The translations under genes were made by a program, and so were the position numbers. Positions 10,718 through 11,888 of a stretch of DNA of 37,804 bases are shown piece by piece. Source of the DNA: Campylobacteraceae bacterium (GTDB lineage Bacteria; Campylobacterota; Campylobacteria; Campylobacterales; Sulfurovaceae); the NCBI GenBank assembly GCA_027038275.1, contig JALVXC010000107.1, positions 1 to 37,804 of the forward strand, in the 5' to 3' direction. The notes under the pieces are model-generated. The model worked only from the letters and a program-made list of their open reading frames with translations, had not been told where the DNA came from and made no database searches. How positions within the stretch are numbered: position 1 is the stretch's first letter; every line of letters begins with the position of its first letter.

Positions 10718-10733
10718 TTTTTATCCTTTACTA

Positions 10734-11001
10734 AGGCTCCTCCAAGGAAATAGACAGATAAATAGCTTTATGAGGTTTTTCATAGGCAAGGCAATCGTTT
10801 GCAGGACTAGCCTCAGCTAATTCAAAAACGATTAACACAGTCTATGGGAAACCTCATAAAGCCCGTAGGGAAGCCACAGAGAGGGCAATCTTCACAAAAT
10901 AAAATTCTTAAATTAGCTGAGGCTAGTCCTACAAATTATATTTTGTGAAGATTGCCCTCTCTGTGACTTCTATTTATCTGTCTATTTCCTTGGAGGAGCC
11001 T
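10734..11001. repeat. Large nested palindrome with kissing-loop potential
   Basis: Four sets of complementary arms are packed in 268 bp. Outer arms: 10734-10765 with 10970-11001, 32 bp perfect. Hairpin I: 10765-10785 with 10842-10862, 21 bp with two G:U-compatible changes; inside it 10793-10800 pairs with 10826-10833. Hairpin II: 10875-10900 with 10940-10965, 26 bp perfect. The loop of hairpin I (10803-10822) is perfectly complementary over 20 bases to the loop of hairpin II (10911-10930). GTAG motifs occur at 10865-10868 (+) and 10932-10929 (-). The right outer arm encodes the last codons and stop of the EamA gene. It is not protein-coding and may be a non-autonomous mobile element or a structured RNA. 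Confidence 0.75.
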
Positions 11002-11888
11002 AAGGCAACTATTAGCCCTGAAATTATGACCAAAATTATACCTAAAACTTTCAAAGGTGTTGGTATAGGGTCACCTAAAGCAACACCAATAATAAGTGCA
11101 AATACAATATTTGAGTAGGAGATAGTCCCAACAATTCCTGCTTTGGTATACTCATACGCTTTGGTCATAAGCACTTGTGAAGCTGTTGCAGAGAGACCCA
11201 TAATGATTAAATAGAGCCATAAAATCCCATTTGGCATAACAAATTCATCGAACATAAACTCTAAATATTTTGGAGGTTCAACATAGGGTGAAAGAGCCAT
11301 TAAAAGCATAGGTGCTAATGTACCCACGCCCATAAAACTCATAACAATAGCTCTTGTATCATAATATGCTCGAAGCTCTCTAATAGATGTATAGGCTAAC
11401 GCTGCCCCTACCCCTGAAAAGATTCCTAATATACTATATTTACTAAAACTAGCCCCCTCTGGAGGCAATGAGATACATGCCATACCTGTAAAGCCTAAAA
11501 GAATTGCTATAATAGCCCACCTATTAAGTTTTTCATTTAAAAAGAGATAGGCAAAAATAGCCACAAATATTGGCGAAGTTTTATTGTAAGTAACTGCCTC
11601 TCCAAGAGGAATATAGGCAATAATATAAAAGTAAGCCAAAAGTGCTACAAACCCCATAGTTCCACGAAAAAGCAGTAAAAGTGGTCTACCACCTTTCTGT
11701 TTTAGAGGAGATTTATAGATAGCAAAACCAACCAAAGCGACACCAAAAACATTTCTAAAAAAAGTTACTTCTACAGGGGGAAGTACTTCACTGACCATCT
11801 TAGCAAACCCACCCATAACAGCAAAAGAGAGTGAAGCTAAAAGCATAAAAAGAACTCCTCTATCTATGCCTAAAATATATTTTTTCAA
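10974..11888 (-). CDS. EamA/DMT-family membrane transporter
   Basis: The 304-residue product has ten hydrophobic segments in two repeated EamA halves, typical of the drug/metabolite transporter superfamily in the inner membrane. Recognisable stretches are SFAVMGGFAKMVSEVLPPVEVTFFRN in the first half, PLGEAVTYNKTSPIFVAIFAYLFLNEKLNRWA at the end of it, and SATASQVLMTKAYEYTKAGIVGTISY in the second. The substrate cannot be read from the sequence. The start is TTG with AAAGG seven bases upstream. The last residues (SSKEIDR) and the stop lie in the outer arm of the nested palindrome, so the natural C-terminus was probably replaced or extended by that element. Confidence 0.88.
   Translation of the reverse strand: MKKYILGIDRGVLFMLLASLSFAVMGGFAKMVSEVLPPVEVTFFRNVFGVALVGFAIYKSPLKQKGGRPLLLLFRGTMGFVALLAYFYIIAYIPLGEAVTYNKTSPIFVAIFAYLFLNEKLNRWAIIAILLGFTGMACISLPPEGASFSKYSILGIFSGVGAALAYTSIRELRAYYDTRAIVMSFMGVGTLAPMLLMALSPYVEPPKYLEFMFDEFVMPNGILWLYLIIMGLSATASQVLMTKAYEYTKAGIVGTISYSNIVFALIIGVALGDPIPTPLKVLGIILVIISGLIVALGSSKEIDR

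Follow-up and report, generated by a model that had tools for sequence, protein, structure and literature searches.

A probable MITE-like element carrying an inverted pair of one folded hairpin module at the eamA–kdsA junction of a Sulfurovum-like genome

The usual view of MITEs is that they derive from insertion sequences (ISs) by internal deletion and that their interior is debris. IS982-derived MITEs are known, an example being MITECca01 in Cardinium (PMC9769881). ERIC, also termed IRU, is a 127-bp MITE that reviews place in the Enterobacteriaceae and Vibrionaceae and for which they name no IS partner (PMC2229807, PMC10969869). ERIC RNA is reported to alter the stability of upstream mRNA in Yersinia in an orientation-dependent manner (PMC2229807). 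For the Campylobacterota, a literature search conducted largely without subscription papers found no description of elements of the kind reported here. The element under study lies within a 37,804-nucleotide stretch of DNA (the window) from a Campylobacteraceae bacterium (GCA_027038275.1, contig JALVXC010000107.1), a Sulfurovum-like host whose nearest kdsA relatives are Sulfurovum MAGs. It is probably a MITE-like non-autonomous element consisting of a terminal inverted repeat (TIR), a hairpin module termed X, a mini-hairpin, an inverted copy of X and a second TIR, moved by an IS transposase and with X acting in mRNA.

An initial reading of the sequence alone had described a nested palindrome of 268 bp at 10734–11001, with two long hairpins inside a closing stem. 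The palindrome is real and far beyond chance, but it measures 274 bp (10731–11004; TIR family A); both hairpins were recovered within the closing stem, but hairpin II is longer than had been stated and a conserved mini-hairpin between the two, CCCGTAGGG, had been missed. Inverted-repeat finding gave a closing stem of 35 nt (97%; 10731–10765/10970–11004), hairpin I arms of 21 nt (90%; 10765–10785/10842–10862) and hairpin II arms of 37 nt (95%; 10870–10906/10934–10970). Loop-to-loop complementarity extended over 31 nt (90%; 10798–10828/10905–10935), with an exact run of ~20 nt. The MFE was −160 kcal/mol as compared with −65 ± 5.5 in dinucleotide shuffles (z=−17.4), none of the 200 shuffles folded as well, and the minus strand was similarly distinct from its shuffles (z=−16.5). 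No Rfam family matched at or above its gathering score in the window or in 20 relatives. Low-E matches to miRNA families were rejected as a known RNA family for the element, being generic long hairpins that scored far below the gathering scores. The features of the element are as follows, where R1 is a covariance model trained on hairpin I alone (23 diverse copies) and A1 is the hairpin I alignment.

10731–11004, no strand: whole element, 274 bp, TIR family A; near-empty junction in relatives
10731–10765, plus strand: left TIR (closing stem P1); same TIR family in loci L155–L158
10762–10861, plus strand: hairpin I, module X in sense; R1 match at 10762–10870 (+), E=3.5e-28, this copy being in the R1 training set
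10788–10792, plus strand: X internal loop, 5′ side, AAGGC (A1); recurs in gammaproteobacterial copies and ERIC
10834–10838, plus strand: X internal loop, 3′ side, AACAC in the window and AACGC in the family consensus (A1)
10798–10828, plus strand: apical part of hairpin I, GGACTAGC CTCA GCTAATTC, self-folding
10862–10870, plus strand: mini-hairpin between the arms, CCCGTAGGG, CCC-GTA-GGG; CCC-TTCG-GGG in family D
10870–10970, minus strand: hairpin II, module X in sense; R1 match at 10862–10973 (−), 58.7 bits, E=6e-12
10905–10935, minus strand: apical part of hairpin II, reverse complement of the hairpin I apex
10970–11004, minus strand: right TIR; encodes the end of the EamA ORF (LGSSKEIDR*)

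The element sits between eamA and kdsA. Pfam searches confirmed EamA (PF00892) and, as expected for KdsA, the DAHP-synthetase family (PF00793). The eamA ORF occupies 10974–11888 on the minus strand, and its last codons and stop lie within the right TIR, where they give EamA a new C-terminus (LGSSKEIDR), contrary to the earlier statement that no coding sequence fits inside the palindrome. In relatives (L009–L012 and L014) eamA and kdsA nearly abut, providing the empty site looked for in a MITE. Judged against this near-empty site, the window element is shown to have inserted into a tight eamA–kdsA junction. Approximately six eamA codons of the relatives are missing or changed at the window junction and, therefore, the insertion was imprecise and left no visible duplication.

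The idea that no other copy might exist anywhere was overturned, as copies were present in the host genome itself and in relatives, and both of the searches put forward in the sequence-only reading, for further copies in the genome and by covariance in related genomes, were productive. A blast search with the region detected related copies on other contigs of the host genome (188 contigs, 2.54 Mb), which contains about ten related full copies; the two hairpins were common to these copies and the closing stem was not. All full copies had the same plan, namely TIR, hairpin X, mini-hairpin (CCC..GGG), inverted X and TIR, and the TIRs differed between families. Family A, that of the window, starts with AAGGCTxCTCCAAGG, and two other families were represented among the own-genome copies (B, AACCTGAGTTCGACGGAATACC; C, AAGTACCTGACCATAATAAATG). 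Relatives added five more (D, TATTACCGCACCAA; E, GGGCACCTCTAAAAACC; F, ATACCATCGGTAACTAATTCCC; G, GAGACCACAGCACAATAGG; and H, AGACTTTTTGCAAAACC). Reduced forms comprised TIR-only copies (~50 bp) and X-monomers (~160 bp). One TIR-only relative of family A in the host genome (L097, reverse complement, 316–380) forms a 25-bp perfect hairpin with no X. Searches with R1 detected X in 72 of 397 Campylobacterota genomes, spanning 26 of 68 genera. More distant relatives were detected in 7 of 53 genomes from a single gammaproteobacterial order and, among 50 sampled genomes of other phyla, in a few, including a flavobacterial MAG with an element bearing family-B-like ends. Phages and plasmids gave no blastn match to the element. 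Two viral-contig matches to a word from the loop were discarded as chance similarity to a phage gene. The own-genome copies were mostly located between co-directional genes, often within 60 bp, and read-through transcription would therefore be expected.

The window element is short (274 bp, below 500 bp), multicopy and without a transposase, and has a 35-nt TIR at 97%. Evidence of transposition came from sister families. Identical 5-nt flanks, all TNNNA, were present in 24 of 37 family B copies as compared with 2.9 expected from shuffled flanks, and identical 4-nt flanks in 7 of 18 family E copies (2.1 expected). Family E ends were also found on a 1.3-kb element (L328) with a 396-aa IS5-family transposase (NF033581, E=3e-81), and family B ends on a decayed IS982-family element in genome G021 (PF13612, E=5e-24), inside which a complete B element is nested. 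The X core therefore rides on the ends of two unrelated IS families, and the elements can be classed as MITEs because their TIRs match IS5- and IS982-family ISs and because of the target duplications. The proposal in the sequence-only reading of a non-autonomous mobile element was thus upheld by the many copies, the target duplications of sister families, the IS-matching TIRs and the near-empty site. Neither a clean target duplication nor an IS partner was found for family A, and scans of viral contigs with TIR-A returned chance pairs only. A TIR-B scan of viral contigs likewise yielded chance pairs only, and a TIR-D scan nothing. Searches of the host genome (G000), of G023 and of the closed genome G063 recovered neither of the IS5/IS982-type transposase domains PF01609 and PF13612. 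The 1.7-Mb draft G023 contained 183 family-B ends, and many of these lay where contigs terminate, suggesting that a recent burst had fragmented the assembly. An IMG/VR contig (L331, 572–750) carried an X-like monomer with AAGGC/AACGC just inside an IS5-type end, possibly the end of an IS or MITE.

Although built from hairpin I, R1 also found hairpin II of the window on the opposite strand, and did likewise in many other elements. All 45 inverted neighbouring pairs of R1 matches were arranged as X sense followed by X antisense, each strand having X in sense in its 5′ half. Inverted duplication of a single module accounts for the complementarity of the two loops. A gammaproteobacterial MAG (L309, 1501–1757) provided the sole neighbouring pair that was not inverted, with two X-like hairpins in direct tandem. 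An insert of 27 nt, with the sequence GTCCTCACTTCGTTGCGGAGTTTTACC or one closely similar, occurred at a constant position of the X loop and was always inverted together with X. It was located in hairpin I in L094 and L096, in hairpin II in L095 and in both in L625, a pattern suggesting that the arms have exchanged loop sequence. In L092, L105, L157 and L625 the outer stem of hairpin I contained a further small insert (TCGAAGAGAGTGCAAAGCACTGC or similar).

Selection on X was assessed by covariation and by the balance of G·U and A·C pairs. In the hairpin I alignment, 97.3% of cells were paired and double-sided changes occurred in 27 of 39 pairs. The covariation score was 0.60, as compared with 0.20 in shuffles, of which 0 of 500 reached 0.60, and no more than 0.14 in slid controls. 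Wobbles were conserved: of the 23 sequences, 22 retained a G·U pair, and 19 and 17, respectively, retained each of two neighbouring U·G pairs. Counts of G·U versus A·C were made over unique contexts after the arms had been aligned symmetrically, without favouring G·U. In the TIR stem, single mismatches comprised 31 G·U and 31 A·C, with no strand bias. For hairpin I on the plus strand there were 32 G·U and 6 A·C, and for hairpin II on the minus strand 67 and 9, the excess in X being spread over many positions. Among 118 R1 matches, read on the X sense strand, there were 115 G·U and 23 A·C in unique contexts, a ratio in which selection by the pairing model may lean slightly to G·U. Given a G·U bias in X and none in the TIR, the TIR has the behaviour of DNA and X that of a strand folded in its own sense. 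The bias has opposite polarity in the two hairpins because hairpin II is hairpin I inverted. These comparisons argue for selection on X in the form of a folded single strand, and the simplest reading is that this strand is most likely RNA; a role of X as ssDNA would give equal base-pair evidence. G:U-compatible changes in hairpin I had earlier been taken as a sign of selection on an RNA; the evidence, here for selection on a folded strand, now extends to both hairpins, is strong in each and runs in opposite polarity.

A purely DNA palindrome or cruciform, in which gene conversion or template switching maintains the likeness of the arms and there is no selection on a folded strand, is an unlikely explanation. 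It would agree with the unbiased TIR stem, and arm-to-arm correction would also yield double changes, but such correction would remove G-T mismatches where conserved wobble pairs are seen, and the 115:23 ratio in X switches its sense between the arms. It is distinctly unlikely that X is an ssDNA hairpin recognised, in the manner of REP/BIME or IS200/IS605, by an HUH (Y1) transposase and that the element moves in this way. The resemblance of the inverted hairpin pairs to BIMEs would fit such a mechanism, as would the presence of Y1 transposases in 12 of 12 genomes tested (G000 and 11 relatives, with 9 matches in the host genome and 16 in G071); ssDNA hairpins also tolerate G-T pairs. However, the combination of TIRs with target duplications is characteristic of DDE transposases, and IS200/IS605 elements make no duplications. 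In addition, no X was detected with R1 beside five Y1 loci scanned, and there is no fixed GTAG/CGTC tag, the loop of the mini-hairpin varying between GTA, GAA, AAA, ATA and TTCG.

The perfect complementarity of the two loops had been interpreted as giving a predicted kissing-loop or cruciform fold. The loop centre was common to both hairpins in only 5 of 70 dimers, and the perfect 20-base match was confined to the window and a few other elements. Moreover, each apex pairs with itself, with compensatory changes (TAGC/GCTA, TCGC/GCGA and TGGC/GCCA), and some elements are monomers carrying a single X. The data therefore do not sustain a kissing loop as a design feature, and a trans-acting structured RNA with two kissing loops is highly improbable despite the perfect match of ~20 nt between the loops of the window element. 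A local inversion-duplication peculiar to the window locus, to which the long and near-perfect arms might point, is almost certainly wrong in view of the dozens of copies with an identical plan elsewhere.

Under the preferred reading of a MITE-like element with X acting in mRNA, the element would move as DNA, with an IS transposase recognising its ends in trans, as is suggested by the ends and duplications of the sister families. X would act, if at all, as RNA within read-through host mRNA. The inverted pair gives an X-sense hairpin first when transcription comes from either side, and for this reason the element would work in both orientations. The likeliest role of X would be to bind a host RNA factor or be processed by one, thereby altering the stability of the joined mRNA, an effect on mRNA reported for ERIC in Yersinia, or sparing the host the polarity of an insertion. 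The occurrence of X between the ends of unrelated IS families could reflect end swapping by recombination or repeated capture. A more tentative proposal is that X, with its AAGGC/AACGC internal loop, may itself be a mobile RNA module that has spread across phyla and passed from one set of transposon ends to another, these sets belonging to unrelated families (IS982 type, IS5 type, TATACCC/ERIC type and others). Inverted pairs would then be kept so that insertion in either orientation gives a sense copy in host mRNA, and ERIC would be the best-known single-hairpin relative. The conserved part of the MITE is here its interior, one folded module that occurs in inverted pairs and is combined with ends from different transposase families. 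Should X be an RNA module, this would supply a testable reason for the persistence of the elements and a possible common basis for ERIC-like enterobacterial repeats and the new Campylobacterota elements. The R1 covariance model can be run on all genomes.

Comparison with known systems showed partial likenesses in each case. REP, BIME and REPIN elements similarly consist of inverted hairpin pairs in many intergenic copies. However, REP units are 20–40 bp with a GTAG or CGTC tag (PMC3733652), whereas X hairpins are ~100 nt, lie inside TIRs, are accompanied by target duplications and have no constant tag; the link of REP/BIME to a Y1/RAYT transposase was likewise absent for X at the five Y1 loci scanned. 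CIR elements of Caulobacter and Brucella share a two-armed RNA fold (PMC2229807) but, by description only, differ in having no 5′–3′ closing TIR stem, in being organised around GANTC sites and in being alphaproteobacterial. IS5-family MITEs are matched by family E in its ends, which are those of an IS5-family IS (L328), and in its 4-nt duplications, but the interior of family E is the X core found in IS982-type elements. MITECca01 is ~240 bp, has the ends of an IS982-family IS, lacks a transposase and is present in high copy number (PMC9769881). It differs, by description only, in that no X core is reported, whereas family B carries an X–X′ core and the window has family-A ends.

ERIC resembles the window element in being intergenic and in forming a long hairpin, and it is transcribed, as would be expected of the window element. 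A consensus of seven fetched ERIC loci from E. coli and enterobacterial plasmids has, as does X, an internal loop AAGGC/AACGCA between paired stems (AAGGC/AACACA in the window), a comparison that was made after the similarity had been seen. The strict AAGGC/AACGCA motif occurred once in 5.4 Mb of background. R1 matched ERIC loci weakly, with a best score of 11.7 bits (E=0.08 in 4 kb). ERIC differs in having one hairpin instead of two and another TIR sequence, the window element being 274 bp with ends AAGGCTCC. The gammaproteobacterial X-dimers (L310–L320), in contrast, mostly have the ERIC-like ends TATACCC...GGGTATA. X and ERIC may share a common descent.
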